This document shows positions 21,585 through 54,056 of a stretch of 64,000 bases of DNA, piece by piece. The stretch is from a virus. A program made the position numbers and the translations under genes. How positions within the stretch are numbered: position 1 is the stretch's first letter; each line of letters starts with the position of its first letter. Below the pieces are notes generated by a model. The model did no database searches. It was not told where the DNA came from and saw only the letters and a program-made list of their open reading frames with translations. The stretch spans positions 62,001 to 126,000 of the IMG/VR virus record IMGVR_UViG_3300023199_000127; one strand, given 5' to 3'.

Positions 21585-24467
21585 ATGGGAATCGCGAAGC
21601 GGCAGTTCGACACTCTGACGGCTGATGGCGTCCTGGAGGCACTCCAGGCCGGCCGTATGCCCTCTCTCCGTGAGCTGGCTGCGGGAGTCTCCAAGCTGAC
21701 AGAACGCCCTGACGGGCCTGGTATGCCCCTTATGAGGGTGCGTCCGCAGGCTCGCCGGCGCCAATGGGACGTGGAGGGGTTCAATAAGACCCTCACGGAG
21801 CTCGAATTCGACCTGTCCCTCTTCTTCGAGGAAACCCTAGCGCTGGGTAATGAGATCCTGGCACGTCACAATTTCCAGATGGCGTCCTATAGATCCCAGA
21901 GCCGGCAGCTAGAAAAGCTGCTCGGCTCACTGGACAACTTGCTGTTTGTCACGAAGAATGCTGACGATCGGTTCTTTGGATTGTTCGACAACTTCGCAGA
22001 TCTCAGCAAGCTTAACCTGGATCTGACTACAAAGGACTGCATCGATCTAGATGAGCAGGTGGCTCTACTGCCTGCTGGATTGCAGTCTGCTAGGAAACTG
22101 GAGATGACCCATCTGTTCTCCAAGGCTACCTGGGGTGTGACCCCGTCGGTGACCGAGGGAGTCCGGGTGCTCAATAACAAGGCGGGAGCGGATGCACCGT
22201 TTGGTAACGCGTTCCAGGACCTCGTGAATGTCTGGCGTCAAGACGTGGTGGTGGACCGGCCTGTGCCGGTGACTATAGAGTTCACTGTTCCCATTTCCGG
22301 GATCAAGACTCAGCAGGTGTCGATTACGCGGGTAAAGCTCGCTCCGCATCTGACCCGGCCAATGAAGGTACAGGTTTTGACCAGTACTGATGGCGTCAAC
22401 TTCCTCAGTCTCGGGGAGGCTATGGTTCTGAAGCGTACTGATCGTGTGAGAAACCTCGACGTCCCGAGCACCCGGGTTCGCTTGGTCCGATTCAAGTGTA
22501 CACTGGATACACCTGACGAGCAGCTAGAGGATGGAAACTATCGGTACTCGTTTGGCTTCCAGCATATTGGCTTCTACACAATGGGGCGTGCTACACAAGC
22601 TGAGCTAGTGTCTGTAGCCGACAGGCCGCAGAACATGTCTGGACCCATCTCCAAGGTGTCTCTGGTGGCTGAGGAAGATATCCCTGCTGGATGCCAGATC
22701 GACTACTTTGTAGCCAGGGCGAACGCTGATGGCGATCGCCTGGATGACTGGCGTCCTATCTCTCCACAGAATCGTGGTGTTGCAGAACATCCTTTGGTTA
22801 TCGAGTTTGCCCAGGCTAATACTGTGCGTCGGCTCATCAGAGCCGATAGCGCACAGGTACATAGCACCCGTAAGAGTGCTAGTTTCTATAGGCTGGAGCC
22901 CGACAGTCTTCTGACTGAGGACATCATCTTTGGATCTGCCAAGCTCCTGCGTGGCAGGAATGCATGGGTGCGTAATACCCGACGGGATCGCATTCTTCGA
23001 TCCGTGAACGATGCCTACATCTCATTTAATGACGGAAACACGCAGAACATCTATGCGGTAGTCAAGGAAGTCGCCTCAATCTCCGCGAAGGACTACAACG
23101 ATGAAGCTGTGAGCTGGCTTGAGATCGACCAGGTTGTAGACTACAACGCTGCTCTGATGGATCTCATCCCTGGTGACAACGTCGACGTGAATACGGATCA
23201 GACTCCGAACTATGCGGTCTACTCTGTAAAGCGATTCCGTCAGACCATGTCTATCTCCAATGAGGAGATTACTCTGACTGGTCTTGCCCTGCAGAGCCTG
23301 GCTCATCCCAAGATCATTCGCACTGGTGCCTCCGCACCAGTGGTTACGAATGATGCAAGTACTGTCACGTACACAGAGGGTGTTGACTATGTCTTCCAAG
23401 AAGATGCGAATGGTGCAATCCAGATCAAGCGTGCATCTGGAACCACCATTAGCTCCGGTGCTACGGTCAAGGTGTCATACACCATTGACCCCGACATCAC
23501 CTCGCTAGTCGAGGCGGTTTACCAGAACAACGTGATTCTTAAGGTGAACTTGGAGGCTGAGGACGATGAGCGCTTCGAGGTCCAGTACCGCTTTGTTCCG
23601 ACGGGCGCCAATGAAATCGTGAAGAGCACCATTAAGGTGACTGAAAAGTATGGCCCCGACTCTGGCAAGCAGTACAACGAAGGCCCCGACTACGCTATTG
23701 ATCTCATCAACGGCAAGATCACTCGTGTCCCCCAAGGTGATATCCAGGGTGCTGGTGCAGACGCGGATGCCCAGATTGCTGCCTATGTAGACTTCAAGTA
23801 CATCGAGACTCCGAAGGTCCTAGACACTTTCTCGGCCTGGGTGTATGTAGAGAGCTCTACTCCTGTACAGTTTGAATTCAGCTCGCTCAGCCTCGACACC
23901 GAGGCCGGTGAGCGTGTGACCATTCTAACTGGTGGGGAAACCCAGGACATCTCGGAGCTCACAGAGAGCCCCGAGTTGCCCAATGGGTGGCACCAGGTCA
24001 TCGTCAAGTCCAAGGATCCCGACTCGTTCTCTGATGCCGCGATCCGCAAGATCACTGCTCTCTTCGACACGGACAATAACCCCGTGTTCTTGGCTGGTGG
24101 CAGATACTTCAGCCGGCTTACTGCTGAAAGACAGCCGATGCGTCAGGTCACCATCGAGTTCCTGCGTACTGCAGTGCTCCCTCAGGACCACACAGCTTTT
24201 GCCATCGACAATGATGGCTCTGTGGTGGTCAATTTCGAACCTGGTGCAACCAGCGACTTGTTTCTCTATGGTCTCCGCTACTCTCCTTCTACTGAAACCT
24301 ATGCTGCAGGTACTTTCGATGAAGAGTTCGATCTGGAATACAGATACCGGATCACCAACGCAGAGACTACGCAAAATATCATGTTCCGAGCCCTTCTCTC
24401 CCGTCGATCCAGTGCGGACAACGGGCTAACCCCGAAGCTTCGTCAGTACGCCCTAAGGATCGGGTAG
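21585..24467 (+). CDS. Large virion protein, relative of the discoidin-like group (paralogue 3)
   Basis: 960 aa. It has a helical N-terminus (residues about 50-130, including ARHNFQMASYRSQSRQLEKL), then beta-sandwich units around 190-350 that end with YSFGFQHIGFYTMGRA, and several more sheet domains to the end (ending NGLTPKLRQYALRIG). The layout of helical head plus galactose-binding-like and Ig-like units matches the genes at 14437, 17395 and 24480, although the DPDTFW signature is not retained. Probably a long tail or baseplate protein. The stop is followed by GGAGTCCCA before the next ATG. Confidence 0.65.
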   Translation: MGIAKRQFDTLTADGVLEALQAGRMPSLRELAAGVSKLTERPDGPGMPLMRVRPQARRRQWDVEGFNKTLTELEFDLSLFFEETLALGNEILARHNFQMASYRSQSRQLEKLLGSLDNLLFVTKNADDRFFGLFDNFADLSKLNLDLTTKDCIDLDEQVALLPAGLQSARKLEMTHLFSKATWGVTPSVTEGVRVLNNKAGADAPFGNAFQDLVNVWRQDVVVDRPVPVTIEFTVPISGIKTQQVSITRVKLAPHLTRPMKVQVLTSTDGVNFLSLGEAMVLKRTDRVRNLDVPSTRVRLVRFKCTLDTPDEQLEDGNYRYSFGFQHIGFYTMGRATQAELVSVADRPQNMSGPISKVSLVAEEDIPAGCQIDYFVARANADGDRLDDWRPISPQNRGVAEHPLVIEFAQANTVRRLIRADSAQVHSTRKSASFYRLEPDSLLTEDIIFGSAKLLRGRNAWVRNTRRDRILRSVNDAYISFNDGNTQNIYAVVKEVASISAKDYNDEAVSWLEIDQVVDYNAALMDLIPGDNVDVNTDQTPNYAVYSVKRFRQTMSISNEEITLTGLALQSLAHPKIIRTGASAPVVTNDASTVTYTEGVDYVFQEDANGAIQIKRASGTTISSGATVKVSYTIDPDITSLVEAVYQNNVILKVNLEAEDDERFEVQYRFVPTGANEIVKSTIKVTEKYGPDSGKQYNEGPDYAIDLINGKITRVPQGDIQGAGADADAQIAAYVDFKYIETPKVLDTFSAWVYVESSTPVQFEFSSLSLDTEAGERVTILTGGETQDISELTESPELPNGWHQVIVKSKDPDSFSDAAIRKITALFDTDNNPVFLAGGRYFSRLTAERQPMRQVTIEFLRTAVLPQDHTAFAIDNDGSVVVNFEPGATSDLFLYGLRYSPSTETYAAGTFDEEFDLEYRYRITNAETTQNIMFRALLSRRSSADNGLTPKLRQYALRIG

Positions 24468-31587: not shown

Positions 31588-31843
31588 TCATTCGTCTGTA
31601 CTGAGACCAAGTCATCCCAGACTCCATCAGGCGCCACTCGTTCAAAGCTATGACGATGGACAACTTATGGGAGTCACCATGCTGACGATGGTCCATGTAC
31701 ACGTGGTAATTCATAAGCGGAGACCTCTCCAGCTCTTTGCGCTCCTCGGGACTAAGCCGGGGCTCAATGAGTAGACCAGCTCCGTCCTCTCTCGACTCTA
31801 CTCTAGGAGACTGGGTGGATTTCGTGGAGGACTTGGACATCAT
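31568..31843 (-). CDS. Small charged protein, function unknown
   Basis: 91 aa from ATG 31843 (a second ATG follows at once and a GTG lies two codons before, so the start is uncertain). Ser/Glu-rich N-terminus, then PEERKELERSPLMNYHVYMD and a helical end (NEWRLMESGMTWSQYRRM). It overlaps the end of the metallophosphoesterase gene by about 40 bases. Confidence 0.5.
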   Translation of the reverse strand: MMSKSSTKSTQSPRVESREDGAGLLIEPRLSPEERKELERSPLMNYHVYMDHRQHGDSHKLSIVIALNEWRLMESGMTWSQYRRMNEFANA

Positions 31844-32456
31844 GATCACTCACTAGTTGTACCGTACGACCCATGAAGGTACGCGGTAGAGACGAGAAGT
31901 ATTCCTGGTGCAGGTGTCCAAACACCAGGTGCTCAATCTTAGTCATATCCAGAGAGTCTTTCCAGATTTCCTTGGCTACCTGATTAGAGAAAAACGGGAA
32001 ATGGGACATGAGAATGTGGGCATCACCAGCAGTGATGGCCATAAGCTGAGCATGCTGGCCCTCTTGCTCACGAGTCAAAGTGTCATGGTGGTGAGACCAG
32101 GGAAGTGAGCCATAATTACCACCCTCCAGAAGAGCAACGTCTGGTATCGGCTTCTGCTGATAGTAGTGCTTCTCACTGAGAAGAGACTTCTTCATCCAGC
32201 TTTGCCACCAGTCATTGTTCCCAGGCACGAACGTGACTTCGTATGCACTAAGGGCATTACTGAGTCTGCGGTCTGCTTTCTCCCAGTCCTGTACAGGGTC
32301 GATGATATCGCCCAGTAGGACGATACGAGACCCGATGGGAATATCACGCAGTTCCTCATGGAACCGCTCCTCAGTCTCGCTGATTGTGCCTACCAGGTGT
32401 AGGCACGAAGTCGCGAACAGCTTCGTGGTCTCGGATTGCGCCGAGGATTCGCTCAA
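31803..32456 (-). CDS. Calcineurin-like metallophosphoesterase with altered first motif
   Basis: 217 aa. GDIID (49-53), GNND (79-82), SHFP (151-154) and GHLHQ (180-184) are in order and typical. The first motif, normally DxH, reads CLH (Cys18, His20), so one metal ligand is replaced. The protein could be less active or use one metal differently. It overlaps the upstream HAD gene by 86 bases, unusually long for this genome. Position next to the sugar nucleotidyltransferase and HAD phosphatase suggests a part in the glycan cassette; the substrate is unknown. Confidence 0.7.
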   Translation of the reverse strand: MSESSAQSETTKLFATSCLHLVGTISETEERFHEELRDIPIGSRIVLLGDIIDPVQDWEKADRRLSNALSAYEVTFVPGNNDWWQSWMKKSLLSEKHYYQQKPIPDVALLEGGNYGSLPWSHHHDTLTREQEGQHAQLMAITAGDAHILMSHFPFFSNQVAKEIWKDSLDMTKIEHLVFGHLHQEYFSSLPRTFMGRTVQLVSDHDVQVLHEIHPVS

Positions 32457-33030
32457 TTGTTACCTCTTCCGGATTCTTCACAGCACAGAGACGACAGCCT
32501 GCCTCTAGGCAGGCTCTCTGACCATTGATGTTGTCTTCAACTACTAGAACCTCAGCCGGCTCAAGCTCCAACCTACGGCAGGCCTCGAGGTAAATGTCCG
32601 GATGGGGCTTTGGGTTATCGACATCCTCATTAGAAAGAGTGAATTCCATGAATGGCATAGCACCAACACCAGTGACCATCAGATCAACAGACTGACGAAT
32701 GGAATTGGAGGCACAGCCCAGTTTGTACCCACGGTCACGGAGGCCCTGCAATAGGGCCACCGTGCCGGTATCAATTCGCACAACCTCAGCAAGCATTTCT
32801 GAAGTACAGTCCTGCTTAAGCTGCCAGATGCGCGTTGCCTCTTTTCCCTCGATACCAAGCATCTTCATCTTCACATTGGTCGGCAGTCCATCAAACTTAC
32901 CCTTATGGTCTCCACGACTAATAGGGTCATGTCCTGCTCTTTCCAGAGCCTTATTCAAGGCCTGGTAGTGCAGGTCACATGCATCGAACAGGACGCCATC
33001 CAAATCGAATACGACAGCCCGGATCTTCAT
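32371..33030 (-). CDS. HAD-family phosphatase (beta-phosphoglucomutase-like)
   Basis: 219 aa. VFDLDGVLFDA (motif I, Asp9 and Asp11), CASNS (motif II), KPHPD (motif III Lys) and VVEDNINGQRAC (motif IV) make a complete HAD active site with the small helical cap of the phosphoglycolate phosphatase/beta-phosphoglucomutase group. Likely removes a phosphate from, or isomerises, a sugar phosphate. It lies next to a nucleotidyltransferase, the usual pairing for making an activated sugar. Confidence 0.8.
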   Translation of the reverse strand: MKIRAVVFDLDGVLFDACDLHYQALNKALERAGHDPISRGDHKGKFDGLPTNVKMKMLGIEGKEATRIWQLKQDCTSEMLAEVVRIDTGTVALLQGLRDRGYKLGCASNSIRQSVDLMVTGVGAMPFMEFTLSNEDVDNPKPHPDIYLEACRRLELEPAEVLVVEDNINGQRACLEAGCRLCAVKNPEEVTIERILGAIRDHEAVRDFVPTPGRHNQRD

Positions 33031-33040
33031 GCTACTTACC

Positions 33041-33868
33041 CTAGCCTGTATCCTTCATACCAAAGGGCGTAGCACTTTGCTTAGGATATACACTAATATC
33101 GCAGCTTGAGAACTTCTCCACATCCTCCGGCGTGCCAATGCCTCGCATTACACACGACAGAGTTTGGCCAATGAACTTCTTGCGAATCAAATAGTTCAAA
33201 GAAGGGGCAATGTAAAACTCCCCATTCACCATATCACCCACACGCATCATTTCCTCAATGGCTTTATCAGCCATCGAGGTTGAAGCATACACAAAGATAC
33301 CAACAATCGCCTCGGAACACGCCGGCTTCACAACCGGCTTCTCCACACAGGCAGCAATGTACTTTGTTTTGTCCTCAACACATGCAAAACTCCACTTACT
33401 CTCGTCTGCTGAGAACGTGGGAACCATGAAATCCACATCTCCCGCTAGAACCTGATACAGCTTAGCCCAACCTCTATTACCCAAAGGTTTCACCCATTGA
33501 TCACAGTTGGCAATCATGAGAGGGCTTTTCTTGTCGATGGAAATCGCTTCAGCAATCCCCACACGGGCACTACTAGCTTGGCCACGAGGATCCGGATCAA
33601 TAACCGCCTGAAACTCCGTCCGCGGATACTGATCACGCATCTGATGTACTGCTCTGCGAATCTGCTGGTCATTCTCACGATTCGTAACCAAGATACAGTT
33701 CTTCACAAGCTCCATCGGAAGACCGTCCAGCGACCACTGCAATAGCGTCTTGGAATCACCAGTAACACCGTTCTCGACAACGATCAGAGGCTTGGGAATG
33801 CTGGCATCATACCCGGCTTCCATAAACCGACTGCCTTGACCGGCCACGGGAATGACAAGATTGAACAC
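33041..33868 (-). CDS. Sugar nucleotidyltransferase-like enzyme
   Basis: 275 aa. IPVAGQGSRF (6-15) replaces the GGxGTR loop, followed by KPLIVV and a NCDQW metal-binding Asp about residue 119. This is the Rossmann-like NTP transferase fold that joins NTP to a sugar phosphate (glucose-1-phosphate thymidylyl/uridylyl type) or to choline-like groups. The precise sugar cannot be read. One base from the next glycosyltransferase gene downstream in the operon, so probably the activating step of the cassette. Confidence 0.75.
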   Translation of the reverse strand: MFNLVIPVAGQGSRFMEAGYDASIPKPLIVVENGVTGDSKTLLQWSLDGLPMELVKNCILVTNRENDQQIRRAVHQMRDQYPRTEFQAVIDPDPRGQASSARVGIAEAISIDKKSPLMIANCDQWVKPLGNRGWAKLYQVLAGDVDFMVPTFSADESKWSFACVEDKTKYIAACVEKPVVKPACSEAIVGIFVYASTSMADKAIEEMMRVGDMVNGEFYIAPSLNYLIRKKFIGQTLSCVMRGIGTPEDVEKFSSCDISVYPKQSATPFGMKDTG

Positions 33869-34678
33869 TTACCTCTCCTTGCGGGCTTCGCCCACTCTTT
33901 CATTGTACACATGCTCAATATGGCGCCAAAGTAGCCAATGATCCTGCTCCAGGAATCCAGTATGAGCTACAGCATCTTTGTAGGTCTGGGACTGCGGGCC
34001 TTGCCCGTGTCCCAGAGCCTCATTATGCTCTCGGAAGAAGAAACTACAGGGCACCACATAAGGATCACCCATGATTCCGCAATGAGCAATGATCCATGCT
34101 TCCGCACATGCACCAGCATGCATGGGATAGTCACATGCCCCAGAACTCACAAACGGTTCACGCTTCACTAGGAAGCTGTAGACGGGCAACGTAGGTCCAG
34201 TCGCAGGCACCATCTTAGTCGCACGATCAAAATCGTGCAACACCCTGCGATTCTCCTGGCCACCGGCATTCACAAAGATCGTCCTGCCACAGAATGACCA
34301 ATCGCGCTGCCACTTCTGCATTCCCTCAATCTGCATAGAGATGCGAGACCGACTACTGTAGTCATCAGAAAACTGATAAGCCACATAGTCTGCCTTGCTG
34401 GTAAGCGCATGCTCAAAGAACGGACGGTGGATTGCACCAGGCCTCCAGTTGGACCGACCAGGTCCAAACTGGAGTCGCACAGTCCGTTCTCTGGGATGCA
34501 TTCTAGCAAGCTCAGCCCACCTGTGAGCAAGAGCTGCAGTTCCATCAACAGACTGATCGTCTACCAGCAACACATCAATAGACCCATCATAGTCTTGGTC
34601 AACCAGACTCTTGATGCACTGGTCCAAAGTATGTTCTCTATTCCATATCGGAATGACGATGCTGACTGTAGGTAGCAT
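33869..34678 (-). CDS. GT-A family 2 glycosyltransferase
   Basis: 269 aa. SIVIPIWNREHTLDQ and VLLVDDQSVDGT are the nucleotide-sugar site of GT2 enzymes; QFSDDYS about residue 115 is the metal-binding acidic motif. Soluble, without membrane helices. Transfers a sugar from an activated donor to an unknown acceptor. One-base overlap with the sulfotransferase gene. Confidence 0.8.
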   Translation of the reverse strand: MLPTVSIVIPIWNREHTLDQCIKSLVDQDYDGSIDVLLVDDQSVDGTAALAHRWAELARMHPRERTVRLQFGPGRSNWRPGAIHRPFFEHALTSKADYVAYQFSDDYSSRSRISMQIEGMQKWQRDWSFCGRTIFVNAGGQENRRVLHDFDRATKMVPATGPTLPVYSFLVKREPFVSSGACDYPMHAGACAEAWIIAHCGIMGDPYVVPCSFFFREHNEALGHGQGPQSQTYKDAVAHTGFLEQDHWLLWRHIEHVYNERVGEARKER

Positions 34679-35400
34679 TAGTATCCTAGCTGACGGAAGT
34701 CCTTATGAAATGACAAAGACAGCAACCGATAAGCATCAGGATGGTAGAAATAACTAGGGAAGGGAACCTTCCCATTCTTATGCTTACACCGTTGCTGTAG
34801 ATGTTCGACCGTATAGTCCCACAACTGAGACTCATTTACACCAAAATAGGCCATGGCATTTTCGACCTTTGGCCAGGGAGTGCCGTAGTAGCGAGCAAAA
34901 TCCCTCACTGCCAACGGATCCTCTAGCGGGATGATCACTGTATCCCCAGAGGTTCTGGTATTCAAATCCCAACCAAGAACCTGAGGTTGGTAGTGTGCAT
35001 CGAGCGCGTACGGGTCGTATCTACAGACGGCCCGTACGAAGTCGAGGAAACACCAGTTCTTAAAGTCTTCCTGGTACACACAATTACGGTCAATGTAGAG
35101 CAGATCTTGCTGAATGAACTTGTTCAAAAATGCACTGACCAGACGATCCCAAGGATGCCTGGTGAACACATAAAAGTCCTTCTTGTAATCCAATCGATGG
35201 ATAGGACACCACCACTCAGAATTCTCGGCATATCCCATGCAATTATGCAGCTCGCCAATGCCCATTTCATTAGCTCCAGACAAGCCAATAAGGTTAGCCC
35301 ACCACCTCTTGATTGTGGTGCAACCAGCCCTCTGCTTCCAGGCAATTGCTAGCTGATGCTCATCACTAGAGAAAACGTTGTAGGAGTACTGGGTGCTCAT
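34678..35400 (-). CDS. Carbohydrate sulfotransferase-like protein
   Basis: 240 aa. KQRAGCTTIKRW (22-33) fits the 5'-phosphosulfate loop (PKxGCTSxKxx) and FTRHPWDRLVSAFLNKF (79-95) fits the 3'-phosphate motif (RDPxxRxVSAY) of PAPS-dependent sulfotransferases, including the conserved Arg and Ser. No signal peptide or membrane segment, unlike the Golgi enzymes, so it works in the infected cell. It stands between a GT2 enzyme and a methyltransferase, so an O-sulfated glycan is the likely product. Phages rarely carry this family as far as I know. Confidence 0.75.
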   Translation of the reverse strand: MSTQYSYNVFSSDEHQLAIAWKQRAGCTTIKRWWANLIGLSGANEMGIGELHNCMGYAENSEWWCPIHRLDYKKDFYVFTRHPWDRLVSAFLNKFIQQDLLYIDRNCVYQEDFKNWCFLDFVRAVCRYDPYALDAHYQPQVLGWDLNTRTSGDTVIIPLEDPLAVRDFARYYGTPWPKVENAMAYFGVNESQLWDYTVEHLQQRCKHKNGKVPFPSYFYHPDAYRLLSLSFHKDFRQLGY

Positions 35401-36143
35401 CTCTGTCTAAACCCACTAACCCACAACCACTCACCATGATCATCAATCGGTTCCGTCTCCCAGGTGTTTAGCGCATGAAGGCCCGCCTCCTCACATACCC
35501 GGACAATTTCCTCATGTGTGTAGGCGCATCCCTCCTCGGCTTGGAGGTGTTCAGGAAGCTCATCGTACCCAGTGGAATCTGGCTCCCCACTGGCCGGCGG
35601 GACATAGTCCCACGGCCGTAGACCATCTCGATACTTCTTCACCTGCAAGGTAAACCAGCCACCCTGCACCAAACACCGTCTCCACGAAGCCAAAATGCTC
35701 CGAACCACAGAATGATCGGCGATGTGCTGGAAGGTGATCACCGAGTAGATATGGTCCACACTGTGGGGTTCCACAAATCCCTCAGGAATACCATCGCCGT
35801 CAGCGGTGGCTACTCCTGCTACGTTATCAGCATCTCCATCCCCAATCTTGTCGGAAACAACCTGAATCATATCTGGGGAAATATCAACCCCGTACCAAAT
35901 ACCACCAAGTTGTGCAGAAAGGGGCAGCAGAAGACGACCAACACCGCAACCATAGTCCAGGATGGTCTCAGCAGGACAGCTACCCACAGCATCCAGTCCA
36001 CCATCTAGCATATGATCGAAGATCTGCTCACGATACCAGTCAACGCTGGCTTTATCGAACTGGTTGTAGCCAACACGATGCTTGAGTTCTTCTTCTCCAC
36101 CAAGCCACCGCTGTCGAGCACCCTTAAGGTACTGGTTGGTCAT
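35397..36143 (-). CDS. Class I SAM-dependent methyltransferase
   Basis: 248 aa. ILDYGCGVGRLLLPL is the SAM-binding motif I, followed by GVDISPDMI (motif post-I), an aspartate-containing HSVDHIYSVITFQHI stretch (motif II-like) and ADHSVVRSILASWRRCL. Typical of small-molecule or sugar O-methyltransferases. ATGA overlap with its neighbours in the cassette. Probably methylates a sugar on the phage glycan; substrate inferred from context only. Confidence 0.75.
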   Translation of the reverse strand: MTNQYLKGARQRWLGGEEELKHRVGYNQFDKASVDWYREQIFDHMLDGGLDAVGSCPAETILDYGCGVGRLLLPLSAQLGGIWYGVDISPDMIQVVSDKIGDGDADNVAGVATADGDGIPEGFVEPHSVDHIYSVITFQHIADHSVVRSILASWRRCLVQGGWFTLQVKKYRDGLRPWDYVPPASGEPDSTGYDELPEHLQAEEGCAYTHEEIVRVCEEAGLHALNTWETEPIDDHGEWLWVSGFRQR

Positions 36144-36961
36144 GCACGTGCTCCTGAAACAGAAAGCATACGGTCATAGCTGGACCACTCAAGGAAATCC
36201 TTCGGGTCTACGCCAGCTTCCCGTGCGCCCTCGGCAAACACCTCACCCCAGTGTATGCCGTAACGACGCTCCAACTCATAAAGCATGTTATTGCGAGCTT
36301 TCTTACGCATTTCTTCGTTCGGCTCGACCTTGGCTTTTTCGTGGTTGATATGCGTGGTACCTGGTTGGTGCAAAATACCTACATCCTGATGGATGTACGA
36401 CTTGAATCCCAACCGATGGCCCAGGTAGGCCATCTCGTAATCCACGCCCCAACCATACATGAAGTCCTTGCTAATGCCGGGCATCTTGAACTCTTCAAAG
36501 CAGCTACGAACAAAGGAGCCACTCAGCAAAGGACAAACAAACTCGACAAAAGAGGTATTCCGTACACCAGATCCCCTTTTCCCCTGCGCACTAGTTGCAG
36601 GATGGCTCTTCTGGTACGGATGAATCTGCGCAGTCGCCGGCGGCATGTCGGCGACAAGCCTATCTAGCGTTCCATCGTCCACAATCTGAGCATCATTACA
36701 GAGACACCAGTAATGGTCAAAATTGTACTCCCCATTGAACCAGATTGACTTAATAGCCTCATGGAAAGACCAGGCCCAACGATTGTTCTCACGCAACATC
36801 AGGTTGTGGTCAGCATTCCTAGTCACCTCGTCAGCATCCGAATCGGCATCGATGTTGAAGATCGTTACTTCAACATCATGCGTGGTCTGACGGATACTGT
36901 CGATCAGACTTTCGGTCATCTCACGCATATTGCGATTGAGTACCAGTGCTGCTACGTTCAT
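36140..36961 (-). CDS. GT-A glycosyltransferase
   Basis: 273 aa. Short N-terminal Rossmann strand (AALVLNRNMREMTESLI), WCLCNDAQIVDDG with an acidic ND/DD motif around residue 85, and FMYGWGVDYEMAYLGHRLG, the aromatic/acidic acceptor motif of GT2-like enzymes. Closest in layout to the next gene upstream. Transfers an unknown sugar; part of the tightly overlapping cassette. Confidence 0.7.
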   Translation of the reverse strand: MNVAALVLNRNMREMTESLIDSIRQTTHDVEVTIFNIDADSDADEVTRNADHNLMLRENNRWAWSFHEAIKSIWFNGEYNFDHYWCLCNDAQIVDDGTLDRLVADMPPATAQIHPYQKSHPATSAQGKRGSGVRNTSFVEFVCPLLSGSFVRSCFEEFKMPGISKDFMYGWGVDYEMAYLGHRLGFKSYIHQDVGILHQPGTTHINHEKAKVEPNEEMRKKARNNMLYELERRYGIHWGEVFAEGAREAGVDPKDFLEWSSYDRMLSVSGARA

Positions 36962-37692
36962 TCCATGATCCTCTTATGCCAATTAGCCCCGTACTTCTCC
37001 GTGAGACGCTTATTCATCTCACTGTAGGCGCTCTTGTAGAACTCCTCCACACTCTCTGGCGCCACACCGCTGCTATATGTCTTGGAGGCTTCATGTTTGA
37101 CAGTGATGTTGTCATCAATGACCACTCGATAGCCTCTCCGACGGGCTTGGTAGCAGGTGTCATAATCGATACCCCAACCCCTATACAATTCAGGGTCAAA
37201 GACAGGCACATTAGCCTGGGGACCGATCATTTGCCAGATCAAGTTGATGTTCAAAGCAGGACAGATGGAATCTGTCATCCGAACATCTCTAAGCCCAATG
37301 CCTTGATAGAACATCCAGGGGTACGCATACCCCTGGATTCGTTCAACCGCGGGGTGCCACCACCCAACATCATTCTTCAAACGATGATGGAAGAAGTCCG
37401 GCGATGGAACTCCGCCGGTGATCTCGAAGTCGTTGGTACACAACCAGAGCCAGTCAATAGACTCACTCCTGTGCTTTTTTACAATGTAGTTCCAACCACC
37501 AGTCATACGCAAGTTGCCACCAGTGAAATGTGTGACATACTGTGACACATCACTATGACTCTCGTCTTCGCTACCATTCTCGTAAACAAAGAGATTCCTG
37601 CCTATTTCCCATCCACAGTTGAGAAGATTGTCAACTGTGCGATCGGTTAGCTCAGCCATCTTGTAGCTGAGAATGCAGCAATGAGCACTCAT
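36958..37692 (-). CDS. GT-A glycosyltransferase
   Basis: 244 aa. ILSYKMAELTDRTVDNLL at the N-terminus, WLWLCTNDFEITGG with the acidic metal motif, and RGWGIDYDTCYQARRRG as acceptor motif; it parallels its downstream neighbour, which argues for a duplication. ATGA overlaps on both sides. Sugar and acceptor unknown. Confidence 0.7.
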   Translation of the reverse strand: MSAHCCILSYKMAELTDRTVDNLLNCGWEIGRNLFVYENGSEDESHSDVSQYVTHFTGGNLRMTGGWNYIVKKHRSESIDWLWLCTNDFEITGGVPSPDFFHHRLKNDVGWWHPAVERIQGYAYPWMFYQGIGLRDVRMTDSICPALNINLIWQMIGPQANVPVFDPELYRGWGIDYDTCYQARRRGYRVVIDDNITVKHEASKTYSSGVAPESVEEFYKSAYSEMNKRLTEKYGANWHKRIME

Positions 37693-38501
37693 AGGTAATC
37701 AGGACTCCTGCGAGGGATAGGTCCACCATTCCTTACCACTGTACGTTGACCAGGTTTGAAGTGATGAGACGCCGTCTGTGGGGTCCGCAAGTCATGATCC
37801 AGATGATACACAAGAGCATCAGTTCTGTGGAAGGCCAGGCCAGAGCGGTGCAACCGCTCGGCCATATCTTCATCCTCACCACCCCAGCCTATGAAGGACT
37901 CATCGAAACCACCCATTCTTCGCATCGCATCTGCCGATGCAGAGAAATTACACCCCCAGCAGACCACCCAAGGATTGGGCACATCGGGCAGCTGGGCATA
38001 GGTACGGCCAAAGACGGTGCTCTCGTCGAGCCTGATGTCCTTCACAGTGGCATTCTCAGCCCAGAAGCTATCATGGACCCTGATATCCAAAGACCCCTCT
38101 ACGAGGCTCTGAGGCACCCTAGAACGAAGGCCCACAAAAACGTCTTTGGGCCGGCCTTCCTGTCCATGTTTGTGGACAAACCTGGTCTCCGGGACAGTAT
38201 CACAGTCGCAGATGATTACCCGGTCTCCTTCAGCATGGCTCAGGCCCATATTTCGGGCCTGGGCTAAGCGGAAGTCTGAACTTCGAGGATGCAGGTAGTG
38301 ATACTGCAGACCGGCAAAGCCTGCTGCATCCTGCATCCAGTTGTTGGCGTAGTGGACCGCATCTCGCGTATCACCATAGCCACCGTCGTTTACAACGATC
38401 AGTTCCCAGAGAGGAGCATCAACCTGCTGGCTAAAGCCACGCAAAGTTTGGAGCAGTCGAGCATTGTCATTACAGACTGTAAGGACGACTGAGATCTTCA
38501 T
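37689..38501 (-). CDS. GT2 glycosyltransferase, chondroitin-synthase-like
   Basis: 270 aa. SVVLTVCNDNARLLQTL and VVNDGGYGDTRDAV form the donor site, ICDCDTVPE gives the DxD motif, and WGCNFS plus FIGWGGEDEDMAERLHRSG is the GalNAc/Gal-transferase-type C-terminal motif, in which the GEDED acids help bind substrate. This pattern recalls bacterial chondroitin or capsule polymer transferases. The donor (perhaps GalNAc or Gal) is inferred. Confidence 0.75.
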   Translation of the reverse strand: MKISVVLTVCNDNARLLQTLRGFSQQVDAPLWELIVVNDGGYGDTRDAVHYANNWMQDAAGFAGLQYHYLHPRSSDFRLAQARNMGLSHAEGDRVIICDCDTVPETRFVHKHGQEGRPKDVFVGLRSRVPQSLVEGSLDIRVHDSFWAENATVKDIRLDESTVFGRTYAQLPDVPNPWVVCWGCNFSASADAMRRMGGFDESFIGWGGEDEDMAERLHRSGLAFHRTDALVYHLDHDLRTPQTASHHFKPGQRTVVRNGGPIPRRSPDYL

Positions 38502-39097
38502 TAGTGTTTCACCCTCAGGCTATGCTCGCTTACCACTACTACCTTCTTACCAGTGCGGAGCACGGGAATGTTCCTCTTACGCAACTCCGGAATCAGCAGA
38601 CGACCCTTCTCAGCATCTTGCTTGTGCTCGACCTCTTCATAATCCTCACAGTCATCAAGAGCAATGATGCCACCCGACTTACAGAGTCTCTCAGCCTGCT
38701 CAAACAATTTGAGCGTGTACTCAGCATCATCTGGTCCATCCAAGTAGATGAAATCGAAGAAATTCCAGGTATTCTGCATGAACTGCAGACCATCATGCTG
38801 AACCAGGTTTACATCATAGCGCAACCCTGCCTCTTCCAAAGCAGCATCGGCACAACTGATGTCTAGGTCAACACTAGTGAAAATGGATTCAGTATCCTGC
38901 GCAAACTGAGCAAAGTGCAAGGTACTATGACCATCGCCCTTGGCATATTCCTCGGTGTTGACCCGCATGGATCCGATCTCAAGGATTTGAATCCCACCAT
39001 GCTCCTCAACAAGAGTCTGCATAGGGATCAGTAGATTCCACGCTCGATGCGCAGGATCATGAAGCTGGAAGATCCGGTCGGTGTCTTGAAGAATCAT
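38501..39097 (-). CDS. Class I SAM-dependent methyltransferase-like protein
   Basis: 198 aa. ILEIGSMRVNTEEYAKGDG is a motif I variant (Gly-poor), TSVDLDISCADAA follows, FFDFIYLDGPDDAEYTLKL matches the Methyltransf_24-type motif II, and GGIIALDDCEDYEE the next strand. A methyltransferase or a related SAM-fold protein. One-base overlap with the GT gene upstream. Second methylation step of the cassette by inference. Confidence 0.65.
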   Translation of the reverse strand: MILQDTDRIFQLHDPAHRAWNLLIPMQTLVEEHGGIQILEIGSMRVNTEEYAKGDGHSTLHFAQFAQDTESIFTSVDLDISCADAALEEAGLRYDVNLVQHDGLQFMQNTWNFFDFIYLDGPDDAEYTLKLFEQAERLCKSGGIIALDDCEDYEEVEHKQDAEKGRLLIPELRKRNIPVLRTGKKVVVVSEHSLRVKH

Positions 39098-39873
39098 TAG
39101 GGGTAGCTTGCAACGTTACCCGCATTGCGGATCACGTACTTTCCAGGGTTAGGGTCTTGATTAATGGGCAGGTTATTGAAATGCTGGTCATGAAACTTAG
39201 GTGTCGCATGTACACCACCTTCACGACCGATATGATTACTACGAGAGAATGCAGGCGTTAGGGTCATCAACGGCTTCTCTATAGCCATCATTGATGTAAT
39301 TGCCCAGTCCCAGCCTATATAGTGTTTACCCCATGCCTGTTTAGACTTGGAGTCATCATGCCAACTAGGCTTGAACCATCTCTCCCAACTGGGTCTAGTC
39401 ATTACCACGCCCAGAGCATTGAACGCCTTAGACTCCAGCAGACCAACAGGGTCTGCTGGGTTACTCCCATTATGGAAGTAGTTCAGACTAAGCCATCGTT
39501 CCTGATCAGCACGCGTAATATCCCAATACCAGTTCGCCATGCGTATTGCATCTTTCGAGAGGACTACATCCTCCTCCAGGTAGATGTTCATCTTTGAGTC
39601 GTCGTTAAACACACGACAAAGGGCAGCAAAAGGATTCTCTCGTACACCCATCCGTTTACGGTTAACGATGATCTCTTTGTGGGGCCAATCGAACTCTTCA
39701 CACACCTTCACAGTCTCAGCACATCCCGGTTCCAGAAAGCAATAGAGCTTCCAGTCCTTAAGCTTCCTGGAGTCCGGCGATTTCAGATCATTCTGCGCCA
39801 GGGTTTCCAGGGATTTTCTGAGATAGTGAGGCCTCTTCCAGCCTGTGATAGTAATCGTTCGCAGATCGGACAT
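39097..39873 (-). CDS. GT-A glycosyltransferase (GT13/GT2-like)
   Basis: 258 aa. Opens TITITGWKRPHYLRKSLETL, has IYLEEDVVLSKDA (an E/D-rich metal motif like the EED of GnT-I) near residue 100 and a GWDWAITSM acceptor motif near 200. The final 40 residues are basic and aromatic. First gene of the cassette in the transcription direction. Sugar unknown. Confidence 0.7.
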   Translation of the reverse strand: MSDLRTITITGWKRPHYLRKSLETLAQNDLKSPDSRKLKDWKLYCFLEPGCAETVKVCEEFDWPHKEIIVNRKRMGVRENPFAALCRVFNDDSKMNIYLEEDVVLSKDAIRMANWYWDITRADQERWLSLNYFHNGSNPADPVGLLESKAFNALGVVMTRPSWERWFKPSWHDDSKSKQAWGKHYIGWDWAITSMMAIEKPLMTLTPAFSRSNHIGREGGVHATPKFHDQHFNNLPINQDPNPGKYVIRNAGNVASYP

Positions 39874-44382: not shown

Positions 44383-44557
44383 CCTCTATTTTGGCTTTCT
44401 GTAACCACCTCGGTAGTCTATTCCGCCCCACCCGGAGAAAGGTGGCAACCTTTCTACGGGAACCTAGACGTTCTAGCAGATACCGCAGGTAGTGCTCTCC
44501 TGTGGTGTCCTCAGCGAAGAGCAGCTTACGCAGACTTCGGGCTGAGGGTTCCGGCAT
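44372..44557 (-). CDS. Small HTH-like protein
   Basis: 61 aa from ATG 44557; the longer frame upstream lies inside the GT4 gene. The body TTGEHYLRYLLERLGSRRKV then ATFLRVGRNRLPRWLQ resembles a helix-turn-helix with a basic recognition helix. It overlaps the GT4 gene end by 32 bases and the primase-helicase start by 11. Could be a regulator or a replication accessory. Confidence 0.5.
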   Translation of the reverse strand: MPEPSARSLRKLLFAEDTTGEHYLRYLLERLGSRRKVATFLRVGRNRLPRWLQKAKIEDEP

Positions 44558-45749
44558 TGTACAGCTCAGCCATCCGCTCGGCAACAAGCTTTGCGATGGC
44601 AGGGATGCTACAGGTCTCTTCAACAGCTTCTTGTCCAGCCTGACGCATGGCATCCACCTTGTCACGATCCCACTGCATGGCTTCAATGATCCTTGCAGTA
44701 GCTCCGTACATATCAATACGAGCCCACCATTGATCAGCTCGATACCACGGGTTATAACTCATCCCGTAAACCGGCTCCATGGTAAAAGGCAAGAGGATGC
44801 CAGACTCACCATCCTGGATATAGTCCGTGGGACCTCCCCAGCCTGTATGGGCAGCAATGCAACCCGAGGCCATAGCCTGTACGACGGGGAAGGCAAAGCC
44901 TTCACCACGGCTAAACGAAACGTACATATCCACAGTCTGGAACCACTGAGCAATCTCATCATCAGAGAGATGCTCAGTGAGCATAAAGATGTCGGCGCCT
45001 TTCACCTCCTCAGGACCAAACTGCACTAGGCTACGACATGCTTGCACACGATCGAAGACCTGTTGCTGCTGGCTACCTTCAATGTGACTTCCATAGGTTT
45101 TGATCAGACCAGCGACCTTCTTGCCGCTGAACTGAGTCATCAACCAGATAAGCCACTCCTCAATGTTCTTACGCTTGGTCCACTGGCCCATAAATCCGAT
45201 GACAAACGGACGCTCCTCTCGGGGAATCTCATTTCCCATAGCGTCCACAGTCAGACCAGTGATAGGCAACTCTTCCAAACCAGATCGATGTAGAGAAGTA
45301 TCTACGGGACCAGGCATCACAGTTACAGGAACTGTGACTCCACTACGTGAAAATGCCTTCTTCGCATCTGTACTAGAAGTCCAGATCTCGTCCATACGAT
45401 TCATCTGTGTGACCCAGTTCAACCTGGGCTGTCCATGCATGTCCGTATCTGGGATGCGAGTAGTCTCCCACTGCGTGAATCCAATGTTATACCGATCCGG
45501 CTGGGGATTGTAGAACTCTGGAGTCTCGAAGTGGATAGCCACATCAGGATCATCCCACGATTTTGAGGCAAGATCCTTGTAGTGCTGACGCTGCGCAGAA
45601 TCCATGCGAATAGTAGCAGAATCATGCTTGTTCGGCTGTAGCTTGATATCAAGATCTTCAACAAGCTCCATAGACTTGAGAAGATTACGGGCGTGAGTCG
45701 AATAGCCAGAAGGGCTATCGATGTCGGTAACAAATAGAACCTTAATCAC
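44526..45749 (-). CDS. GT-B family 4 glycosyltransferase
   Basis: 407 aa. N-terminal SPSGYSTHARNLL acceptor-side loop, IGFMGQWTKRKNIEEWL linker motif and FSRGEGFAFPVVQAMASG donor motif; the second Glu of the usual Ex7E is Gln here. WGGPTDYI follows. GT4 enzymes use NDP-sugars and build lipopolysaccharide-, capsule- or protein-linked glycans. Overlaps its partner by four bases. Confidence 0.75.
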   Translation of the reverse strand: MIKVLFVTDIDSPSGYSTHARNLLKSMELVEDLDIKLQPNKHDSATIRMDSAQRQHYKDLASKSWDDPDVAIHFETPEFYNPQPDRYNIGFTQWETTRIPDTDMHGQPRLNWVTQMNRMDEIWTSSTDAKKAFSRSGVTVPVTVMPGPVDTSLHRSGLEELPITGLTVDAMGNEIPREERPFVIGFMGQWTKRKNIEEWLIWLMTQFSGKKVAGLIKTYGSHIEGSQQQQVFDRVQACRSLVQFGPEEVKGADIFMLTEHLSDDEIAQWFQTVDMYVSFSRGEGFAFPVVQAMASGCIAAHTGWGGPTDYIQDGESGILLPFTMEPVYGMSYNPWYRADQWWARIDMYGATARIIEAMQWDRDKVDAMRQAGQEAVEETCSIPAIAKLVAERMAELYNAGTLSPKSA

Positions 45750-47086
45750 AGTCGAACTCCGAAAGCAGAACGCCCCTCCTGGGCAGCTAAATCATCAAGC
45801 AGTTTCTTCCACTGAGCAGCAATGATGGTGTAGTCAAAATTCTCTACCACTGAACGTCGTCCTGCACGTCCCATAGACTTACGCATCTCCTTGTTCTGCG
45901 CAAGCAGGTAACAGTGCAAGACACACTGTGCAATATCAGGAATCACCCGCTCGATACCTGAGCCGTGCTCCGTAATACGAGCAGCCTCCGGCACAGCAAT
46001 GCCACCAATCTGTTTCCCAACCTCTCCTTGTCCAGAGTAGTCTGAGTAAATCACAGGCACGCCGGCTGCGGCAGCCTCAATCAGAGGCATGCCGAAGCCC
46101 TCACCACCAGACATCGACACATACATGTCGAACAGGTTGTAGACGTCGTTCATGGCCCCATCATCAAAGCCCTTGGTGTGACCCAGGCCTTGCGTGTAGA
46201 TCACTTCGCCCTTCTGGCCCCACAGTTCCTCCTGGTAGGGGAAGTTGATACCTCCCTCCTGAGCAAAACTGTGCACCCAGAAACGCATGTTCGGCATAGC
46301 CTTGGGATGAATCCAGTCACCACTCGTATTTCCTTGAGGTGCATATCCCTTACGTGCATTGCGATCGTAATGTCCAAGTTCCACGCCACCATCTGCCTTG
46401 TACATCCAATTTCCTGAACGCAGATAATACTGAATCGGGTATATGATCCAGGGCATCTTACGAAACTGATTCTTACCAACGAAGCCCATCACGATGGCAT
46501 CCTTGGAGTACCGTGAGCCCAGCGCATGCTTACGCAAGTTCTCTCGCTGATCATCGGATAGAGGCTTAAACACCTCAGGATCTACACCATGATAAACAGT
46601 CTCCGCAGAACCACCAGTCAAACTCTGCATGGCCTTAGAACCCCACTTGGTGACACCCACCAGCAGATCACACTGCTGCAGGGTGTCCTTGTACACCGAG
46701 GGGATCGGCTCTCCATCTATGGGAATCCACAGTGCAAGCTTGAAACCCATAGTGCGACGCCACTCTGCAAGGTGTTCAATCATGTATGCATCAGCCAAAG
46801 ACCAGACAATGTCTGGTCTCATCTGATGCACCAGACGACCAAAGGACTGTGCTCCATATCGATCCCCCTCCTGTAGCATCGGTCGACCCTCAGGATCGAA
46901 ACCTGCATTGGTGGGGTAAATCTCAAAAGGAACCTCTAGTCCTTCGATCGTCTTCTGATGGAACCACGCATGCTGAGCAATACGATACTGACCTGTCTGC
47001 AAAAGTGCAGTCCAGAGGTCGCGAGTAATGCGACCAAAAGACGTGTGCGTTGCAGCACTGTAAGTGGACAACAGGATCTTGGTCAT
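45746..47086 (-). CDS. GT-B family 4 glycosyltransferase
   Basis: 446 aa. Starts LLSTYSAATHTSFGRITRDL; YHGVDPEVF is the hinge phrase, IVMGFVGKNQFRK the C-domain start, and SGGEGFGMPLIEAAAAG an intact Ex7E donor motif. It forms a pair with the next GT4 gene and follows the Cas4-like gene at 47083 (ATGA overlap). Second part of the phage glycan machinery, about 5 kb from the main cassette. Confidence 0.8.
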   Translation of the reverse strand: MTKILLSTYSAATHTSFGRITRDLWTALLQTGQYRIAQHAWFHQKTIEGLEVPFEIYPTNAGFDPEGRPMLQEGDRYGAQSFGRLVHQMRPDIVWSLADAYMIEHLAEWRRTMGFKLALWIPIDGEPIPSVYKDTLQQCDLLVGVTKWGSKAMQSLTGGSAETVYHGVDPEVFKPLSDDQRENLRKHALGSRYSKDAIVMGFVGKNQFRKMPWIIYPIQYYLRSGNWMYKADGGVELGHYDRNARKGYAPQGNTSGDWIHPKAMPNMRFWVHSFAQEGGINFPYQEELWGQKGEVIYTQGLGHTKGFDDGAMNDVYNLFDMYVSMSGGEGFGMPLIEAAAAGVPVIYSDYSGQGEVGKQIGGIAVPEAARITEHGSGIERVIPDIAQCVLHCYLLAQNKEMRKSMGRAGRRSVVENFDYTIIAAQWKKLLDDLAAQEGRSAFGVRL

Positions 47087-47952
47087 TTCATTCGGTTCTT
47101 CAGAACTTCAATATCGTGCTTATGCACGCGCCCTGTGTGGGCCTCGTTGCAGATTTTCTGGAATGGACAGGTTCTACACCTGCTCATATGCGGGGTCTGA
47201 AATACCACATTCTCCTGCATACCCCGCACCAGATTTTTCAGTGTAGCAGAGAAGCCACGATTTCGCACCCTGATGGTCTTTATCTCTGGAGACTGGGATC
47301 TATGCCAGGGACTGAAGGAGACGTGATGAATCTGAGCCTTGGGCTCCGCGTCCCGCAATACCGCCTGAGTCCAGGCCCCCTTGATAGGGTAGAACCGTGG
47401 AGAGGACAAGGAACTCTTCTCATTGGTGATATGGAGGACGATTGGCCCATGACAGTACGTTCTGTCTCGAGCCATCATGATTCCATCCAGCTCACCCTCA
47501 ATGACGTGCCCCCAGAGCTCCACAGCGGCCGGCAGACGGCCTGCAGAGATCTCGAAGTCTCCTCGGTAGCTAGTCCACCTAGCGAACTCCTGGAGGGCCA
47601 GAGAGCCCTCCTGGAGGTACAGGGAGTACTTGGCAGCCTGGTCTAGCATCCCACCAGCTGCACTGAAGCCCTTAGAGAGCACCTTCTTGAAGATCTCGAC
47701 AGCCTGAGAGGCTGGCGATCGCTTCGAATTTGCTCCCACCTCAGTCATCTTGTACGCATAGTGACTAATCGCTTCGCGTACAGATTCGTAGTACACCTGC
47801 TCAAGATCCCGCTCCGCATGGGGCAAGCTCCACTGGTACTGATACCGCCATTTCAATGAACAGTATCCATAGGTCAGGATCTCATTGATGTGCATGAATA
47901 AAGGAGCCCAGGGTGAACCCCCGGGTTCCCCATTGCAAGAAGCATCCTCCAT
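47083..47952 (-). CDS. Second Cas4-like PD-(D/E)XK nuclease
   Basis: 289 aa (an in-frame ATG at 47895 gives 270 aa and follows a small GC-rich hairpin, so the start is uncertain). YGYCSLKWRY supplies the first Cys, GELDGIM the Asp and ITNEKSS the ExK of the catalytic core, and CRTCPFQKIC the cysteine cluster near the C-terminus. Same layout as the 355-aa gene but clearly diverged. Probably an Fe-S nuclease for DNA ends. Confidence 0.65.
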   Translation of the reverse strand: MEDASCNGEPGGSPWAPLFMHINEILTYGYCSLKWRYQYQWSLPHAERDLEQVYYESVREAISHYAYKMTEVGANSKRSPASQAVEIFKKVLSKGFSAAGGMLDQAAKYSLYLQEGSLALQEFARWTSYRGDFEISAGRLPAAVELWGHVIEGELDGIMMARDRTYCHGPIVLHITNEKSSLSSPRFYPIKGAWTQAVLRDAEPKAQIHHVSFSPWHRSQSPEIKTIRVRNRGFSATLKNLVRGMQENVVFQTPHMSRCRTCPFQKICNEAHTGRVHKHDIEVLKNRMK

Positions 47953-53657: not shown

Positions 53658-54056
53658 TGGTGGAGGCGGTGGGAATCGAACCCACGTGCTGCATCGTCCT
53701 TCCAAGGACATCTACATGTGTGTCTCATTGCTTCGTGGATTAAAGCATTCAAGCGCAATGAGCAAAGCGTCCCTACTAGAAAGCTTTCCCTTACCAGGGC
53801 AGCGCTTTCGCTGAGTCAGCAGTCTTTCCTGCCGTCATCCTCCTGGAACCTGGAGGCAAGGCTTGCGGCCCTTAGGCCGCGAGGCGAGCGACGCCACCGG
53901 AGCTCTTAACGAGCACCGGCACGAGGCTGCCGAGGGTGCGCTTGGAGCGCTTGAAACCGTTCTTTGCGGTTACGTTGTCCAGGGTTTTACGAGGCCACCT
54001 GGAACCTCGACATGCAGTCTCTTTTCAGTAACGACCAGTCGATACCGGTCGCCCCC
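53658..54056 (-). ncRNA. ssrA: Transfer-messenger RNA (tmRNA)
   Basis: 399 bases on the minus strand. 5' GGGGGCG pairs with 3' CGCCTCC including G3:U70 (alanine identity), followed by ACCA. GGTATCGAC after the acceptor and the GTGGG-TTCGATT-CCCAC T arm are tmRNA hallmarks. Helix 2 pairs CTGCATGT (54017-54010) with ACATGTAG (53719-53712). Pseudoknot 1 reads GAGG..CCAGG..CCTC GTAAAAC CCTGG, matching the E. coli arrangement. The resume codon GCA (53967) opens a 31-codon tag beginning AKNGFKRSKR and ending GGVARLAA before TAA (53872-53874), which sits in a GCGGCC/GGCCGC hairpin. It would rescue stalled ribosomes with host SmpB and mark products for ClpXP-type proteases. The tag is unusually long and basic. 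Confidence 0.95.

Follow-up and report, generated by a model that had tools for sequence, protein, structure and literature searches.

Gene clusters containing glycosyltransferases, HAD proteins, nucleotidyltransferases and O-methyltransferases have already been described in cyanophages (PMC7824862). Such lipopolysaccharide (LPS) or capsular polysaccharide clusters are known from the literature for P-SSM2 and S-SSM7, and those of S-8S55, B23 and DSL-LC03 were inspected in this study. What they do was left open in PMC3037559, as far as the accessible part of that paper goes. Here, a ten-gene cassette of this type is described, which is located at positions 32371-39873 of a 64,000-nucleotide stretch (the window) covering bases 62001-126000 of the 180,792-base virus record IMGVR_UViG_3300023199_000127.

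All ten open reading frames (ORFs) lie on the minus strand in head-to-tail arrangement, the first beginning at 39873 and the last ending at 32371. Their transcription order is GT_E, MT2, GT_D, GT_C, GT_B, MT1, SULF, GT_A, NTP and HAD, names used here for glycosyltransferases (GT), methyltransferases (MT), a sulfotransferase, a nucleotidyltransferase and a HAD protein. In this order, the junctions measure -1, -1, -4, -4, -4, -4, -1, 0 and +10 bases. At eight of the nine, neighboring genes thus share 4 bases or 1 base or directly adjoin, and only the final junction, between NTP and HAD, has a gap of 10 bases. The tight packing claimed in an earlier note, made from the letters of this DNA alone, was hereby confirmed, as was the presence of all ten ORFs. 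Pfam curated cut-offs are exceeded by seven of the ten proteins, the exceptions being GT_E, GT_B and GT_C. Several co-directional glycosyltransferases are clustered with an enzyme for nucleotide-sugar activation, two of the features by which a phage glycan cluster of the LPS/capsule type is recognized. Judging from the co-transcribable arrangement and the family matches, the set would be able to activate, transfer, methylate and sulfate sugars, as had been proposed.

Like the clusters of the isolated cyanophages, the cassette shows a long co-directional run of glycosyltransferases with the same HAD-NTP module, and like that of S-8S55 it includes a Sulfotransfer_2 gene. Unlike in those clusters, HAD and NTP are separate genes in reverse order, GT13-like and GT_B/GT_C enzymes are present, and no close relatives of the phage backbone occur in the searched collections. 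Complete cyanophage clusters are described with an NAD-dependent epimerase/dehydratase, whereas none was found in this record. In addition, the activation enzyme belongs to the NTP_transferase family and not to the HIGH superfamily named in PMC7824862. The cassette is a variant of the known cyanophage cluster: its HAD and NTP genes are unfused, its single unit of ten genes includes both a sulfotransferase and two methyltransferases, and one of its enzymes is GT13-like. Sulfation makes it a variant rather than a new kind of cluster, since sulfotransferases occur within three other phage glycan loci.

The HAD-NTP activation module

The last two genes of the cassette encode a sugar-phosphate nucleotidyltransferase (NTP, 33041-33868, GTG start) and a HAD protein of the beta-phosphoglucomutase type (HAD, 32371-33030). 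They form one dedicated activation module and act as one step, because the two families occur together in phage loci as well as in cellular loci. In IMG/VR, at least 558 relatives of NTP were found among 600 pattern-matched viral stretches (profile scan; tblastn E 1e-3). The phage loci analyzed were fetched by NTP and comprise the best 80 of these at least 558 relatives, with one further locus, L096, lying outside the 80. Both HAD and NTP are present in 78 of them, fused in 73 and as separate genes within the locus in 5; the remaining two are truncated by a contig end directly upstream of NTP. Because the loci are related (at 70% identity, 85 NTP proteins form 11 clusters and 78 HAD proteins form 43), the 78 cases are not 78 independent events. 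Among phage records, relatives of NTP were found in 16, all of them Synechococcus phages. Three of the five records inspected encode one fused protein in the order HAD-NTP, and in the other two NTP is the N-terminal part of a longer protein without a match to this HAD.

The same association was found in cells. Eighty loci from bacterial and archaeal genomes were fetched by HAD and counted in six frames, with thresholds of E < 1e-50 for a HAD of this type and E < 1e-20 for NTP. Of the 23 loci with a family-type HAD, 22 also contain NTP, as opposed to none of the 57 with other HADs (Fisher 8e-19, with loci that are not fully independent). The only family-type locus lacking NTP is cut at a contig end. 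Neighbors in the phage loci fall into 408 clusters, of which 148 were covered by representatives. These 148 are most commonly glycosyltransferases, FkbM and other methyltransferases, and epimerases, and two of them belong to Sulfotransfer_2. Among 90 neighbors in the cellular loci, counted as members and not as loci, epimerases, WavE, methyltransferases and glycosyltransferases were found.

The nucleotidyltransferase named in the earlier note was verified by matches to NTP_transferase (1.3e-5) and phrog_3980 (1.2e-30), and the GxGxRF and PK motifs are invariant. The same note had called its partner a HAD phosphatase. Membership in the HAD family is clear (HAD_2, 4.4e-32), but the label phosphatase is not established, since the best solved relatives of the family profile are beta-phosphoglucomutases (2.2e-27). 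The protein stays below the NCBIfam mutase cut-offs, with 75.8 versus 189.4 bits for TIGR01990 and 88.3 versus 153.35 bits for TIGR02009. In the numbering of beta-phosphoglucomutase (beta-PGM), we take the catalytic aspartate pair, His20, Lys76 and Arg49 to be the key residues. In the family studied here, D9, D11, H21 and K72 are conserved in 97-100% of 78 phage HADs. HAD would thus be a sugar-phosphate mutase or phosphatase that feeds the nucleotidyltransferase.

No described product of the HAD-NTP pair was found in the open-licence papers searched. Several bacterial loci (L103, L104, L108, L110, L114, L115 and L119) carry two NTP paralogs beside a single HAD, and GDPD-like genes lie near some of the modules. 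Both observations may hint at the activated compound.

Glycosyltransferases, methyltransferases and sulfotransferase

Of the five GT-A transferases counted in the earlier note, three are supported (GT_E, GT_D and GT_A), whereas GT_B and GT_C are only probable members. GT_E (39097-39873), the first gene of the cassette, encodes a GT13-like GT-A glycosyltransferase, whose two-sequence profile matches POMGNT1 (3.6e-7) and GnT-I (8.6e-5). Both are enzymes which we take to belong to CAZy family GT13, the relatives of beta-1,2-N-acetylglucosamine-transferases. Homologs of GT_E were found in Microbacterium phage Magritte and next to the HAD-NTP module in one phage locus (L038) and one bacterial locus (L121). 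GT_D (37689-38501) is a glycosyltransferase of the GT2 type with a GT7C motif (Glyco_transf_7C 1.6e-14, Glycos_transf_2 2e-13). It carries the motif GWGGEDED and matches chondroitin synthase (1.2e-9) and beta-1,4-galactosyltransferase (6e-4), which it resembles in the C-terminal motif region. However, this similarity is local, comprising about 60 residues, and gives no evidence for a glycosaminoglycan. GT_A (33869-34678) is a GT2 glycosyltransferase (Glycos_transf_2, 8.6e-14).

GT_B (36140-36961) and GT_C (36958-37692) are paralogs (BLASTP 4e-15). Their placement in the GT-A fold is based on a C-terminal GWG.DY motif, GWGIDY in GT_C, and on profile similarity, which is weak (hhalign E 0.001, probability 21%). 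A homolog of GT_B (1.2e-11), likewise without a Pfam match, shares the bacterial locus L119 with a HAD-NTP module. Profiles of GT_B and GT_C, built with or without this homolog, yielded nothing credible in PDB. The two proteins represent a poorly described family that is weakly placed in GT-A.

The two GT4 genes, which the earlier note had located about 5 kb away, are real and start about 4.7 kb beyond the cassette. GT4a (44526-45749, minus strand; Glyco_trans_1_4 1.5e-9, phrog_2170 8.8e-24) overlaps by 4 bases with GT4b (45746-47086, minus strand; Glycos_transf_1 2.5e-9). Homologs of GT4a occur in 7 of the 81 viral loci scanned. In six loci the order GT4b-GT4a is kept upstream of the HAD-NTP module, but these belong to a single lineage with 80-95% identity and count as one observation, so that one other phage lineage keeps the pair beside the module. 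Within the stretch 44526-47952 (minus strand), the pair overlaps by 4 bases with a gene showing a sub-threshold PD-(D/E)XK nuclease match, followed by a primase-helicase. A third GT4-type glycosyltransferase is encoded outside the window, at positions 137282-138676 of the record (minus strand; L006:11783-13177).

Two class I S-adenosylmethionine (SAM)-dependent methyltransferases were found as claimed, namely MT2 (38501-39097; Methyltransf_24 4e-10) and MT1 (35397-36143; Methyltransf_25 7.9e-13). The sulfotransferase also proved to be correctly named. SULF (34678-35400) is placed in Pfam Sulfotransfer_2, like carbohydrate sulfotransferases (3.1e-8; 34.5 bits, with a Pfam cut-off of 22), and retains the motifs QRAGCTT and RHPWDRLVS, which we take to be those binding 3'-phosphoadenosine-5'-phosphosulfate (PAPS). 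It is predicted to be a PAPS-dependent, carbohydrate-type enzyme acting on carbohydrate. A relative in PDB was also sought, and the sole match, an antibody chain at 0.39, was rejected as chance.

A search for Sulfotransfer_2 took in 31 of the 87 phage loci (L010-L096) and was positive in 4 of the 31 records. In three of these (S-8S55, G003 and G024) the gene is situated within the fetched glycan locus, and in G001 it lies about 39 kb from it. The gene of Synechococcus phage S-8S55 (plus strand, L012:11387-12085, OQ504983 153872-154570; 9.6e-9), annotated as 'hypothetical protein', belongs to the glycan cluster of that phage and is located about 2.7 kb downstream of its HAD-NTP gene. Phage sulfotransferases have been described with unclear function, according to the accessible part of PMC10580990. 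Since the sulfotransferase sits within the glycan locus here and in three other phage loci, it points to sulfated glycans.

Proposed pathway and its acceptor

With the gene arrangement, the enzyme families and the HAD-NTP module described as above, we infer the chemistry of a pathway, the order of its steps and its acceptor. A soluble phage-encoded oligosaccharide pathway, with the glycan most likely on one or more virion proteins, has about an even chance of being correct. In this pathway, NTP and HAD would turn a sugar phosphate into a nucleotide sugar, with HAD as mutase or phosphatase and NTP as pyrophosphorylase. Next, the GT4 pair and as many as five of the cassette's GT-A enzymes would build a short glycan from the product of the module and from nucleotide sugars of the host. 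The two methyltransferases would decorate hydroxyls, the sulfotransferase would add negative charge from host PAPS, and the acceptor of the glycan would be at least one virion protein, modified in the cytoplasm.

None of the 12 enzymes contains hydrophobic segments, and no ORF with at least four was found among 188 ORFs of at least 90 residues in the record, a count that leaves out ORFs broken at piece borders. GtrA, integrase and resolvase were likewise not found in the record, which may be incomplete. The lack of membrane export proteins and of these three fits a cytoplasmic acceptor. A precedent is given by mycobacteriophages, where phage glycosyltransferases glycosylate capsid and tail tube, according to the accessible parts of PMC12363180 and PMC12619734, where this is cited. 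As in Che8, Corndog and Myrna, phage glycosyltransferases would here serve a glycan possibly carried by virion proteins. Unlike in those phages, as far as the accessible sources describe them, far more enzymes are present, including activation and sulfation, and the system is known from genes alone.

Several points weigh against this pathway, whose virion acceptor is putative. Modification of the host surface is possible without membrane proteins of the phage, since a lytic phage can borrow lipid carriers and flippases of the host. An epimerase (PF01370) was searched for in the record with 0 matches, whereas 14 of 14 controls were positive, so that the host must supply the majority of the donor sugars. 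HAD carries Thr51 at the position of beta-PGM Arg49, and because of this replacement its action as a mutase is no more than putative. The structure predictions of GT_B and GT_E are unusable, with a mean predicted local distance difference test (pLDDT) of 35.8 and 40.4, respectively.

The virion acceptor stands slightly ahead of the host surface as a close rival. In the latter case the enzymes would modify the lipid-linked O-antigen, the capsule or the LPS of the host while the phage infects it or persists in pseudolysogeny, and block competing phages, for which there is a smaller but serious probability. Published readings of the related cyanophage and pelagimyophage clusters favor it (PMC7824862; PMC7029224 in its accessible part), the cellular homologs of the module adjoin WavE LPS synthesis, epimerase and cytidylyltransferase genes, and the cassette, being co-directional with replication genes, may be expressed before virion assembly. 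On the other hand, no flippase-, polymerase- or ligase-like membrane protein is present in the record, nor are GtrA, integrase or resolvase, and seven glycosyltransferases plus a sulfotransferase would be a large investment for a lytic cycle. A special case is serotype conversion by GtrABC of temperate phages, which GT_A recalls in that its N-terminal part partially matches a GtrB-like family (1.1e-5). The Gtr type fails for lack of GtrA, integrase, resolvase and a multi-membrane-spanning protein in the record.

It is improbable that the product is a small soluble molecule carrying sugars, such as a secondary metabolite or toxin, instead of a glycan bound to a particle or surface. Such a product has been proposed for another, second type of cyanophage cluster that contains methyltransferases and HADs (PMC7824862), but a halogenase, a carbamoyltransferase and a scaffold-forming enzyme are absent among the ten genes, which are rich in glycosyltransferases.

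Even less credit is given to the idea that modified DNA bases are glycosylated, as happens in T4-like or TET phages; action on DNA bases had been named by the earlier note as a finding that would speak against its reading. Phage glycosyltransferases acting on DNA are known, reportedly from Pyle et al. 2024. The GT4 pair is located among replication genes with its 4-base overlap to the gene of the PD-(D/E)XK match, and MT1 partially matches a family of phage 'DNA methyltransferase' proteins (1.9e-5). However, searches of the 180.8-kb record for three families, Tet_JBP, Thymidylat_synt (the dCMP/dUMP hydroxymethylase superfamily) and C5 DNA_methylase, gave 0 matches and hence no support. Among 14 control genomes, Thymidylat_synt was found in 9 and DNA_methylase in 11, while Tet_JBP was found in 1, below the cut-off, and is a weak control. 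A thymidylate synthase outside the window matches the phage family of that name and presumably is ThyX-like. Modification of DNA bases by known routes is thus unlikely. Finally, it is very improbable that the cassette is filler without function that serves headful packaging, an idea formerly raised for the LPS clusters of cyanophages according to the accessible part of PMC3037559. Against this, none of the ten frames is interrupted, nine of the ten genes adjoin or overlap a neighbor and catalytic motifs are kept, and phages and cells alike conserve the pairing of HAD with NTP.

The virion reading is retained as the most likely one. In its full form, in which a sulfated and methylated oligosaccharide would cover the particle of the phage and be produced almost entirely by phage enzymes, with the dedicated module of NTP and a beta-phosphoglucomutase-like HAD as the starting point, it is tentative and rather doubtful.

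Phage record and significance

The record belongs to a contractile-tailed phage, with terminase large subunit, tail sheath, structural proteins and primase-helicase. Among 50,697 phage records, the cassette DNA has no match, and the structural protein at 21585-24467 has a single weak relative in Bacillus phage vB_BauM_KLEB27-3 (25.8% over 43%). Single-sequence scans of IMG/VR gave no close relatives for NTP, GT_C, SULF and primase-helicase, and SULF and GT_C had no tblastn match against phages. In the collections searched, the phage backbone has no close relatives. From its composition, a recent acquisition of the cassette was considered, but this argument was dropped because the lower G+C is common to the whole minus-strand block; the low hexamer scores came from training mainly on plus-strand structural genes.

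Upstream of the cassette, the co-directional run continues to 47952 with small genes, a Cas4/RecB-like gene, the primase-helicase and the GT4 pair, and the cassette may be expressed together with the replication genes. Downstream, a co-directional metallophosphoesterase gene (31803-32456, minus strand; Metallophos 1.2e-10) comes after HAD with an overlap of 86 bases; its membership in the cassette is uncertain. Further features are a tmRNA gene (53658-54056, minus strand; Rfam 114 bits, ARAGORN), which lacks similar DNA in the phage collection and whose predicted tag, at 31 residues, is unusually long, and a 905-residue protein near the terminase gene, whose C-terminal part is Cas4/exonuclease-like (L002:7551-10268, plus strand).

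The cassette is real and coherent, and it offers two main leads, namely the HAD-NTP module and the repeated occurrence of sulfotransferase genes within phage glycan loci. With it, the function of phage glycan clusters becomes testable, as the cassette is compact, its first step can be assayed and the product of the sulfotransferase shifts charge and mass. The HAD-NTP module is common to hundreds of environmental phages and diverse bacteria, and it recurs so tightly that knowing what it makes would shed light on hundreds of phage clusters at the same time.

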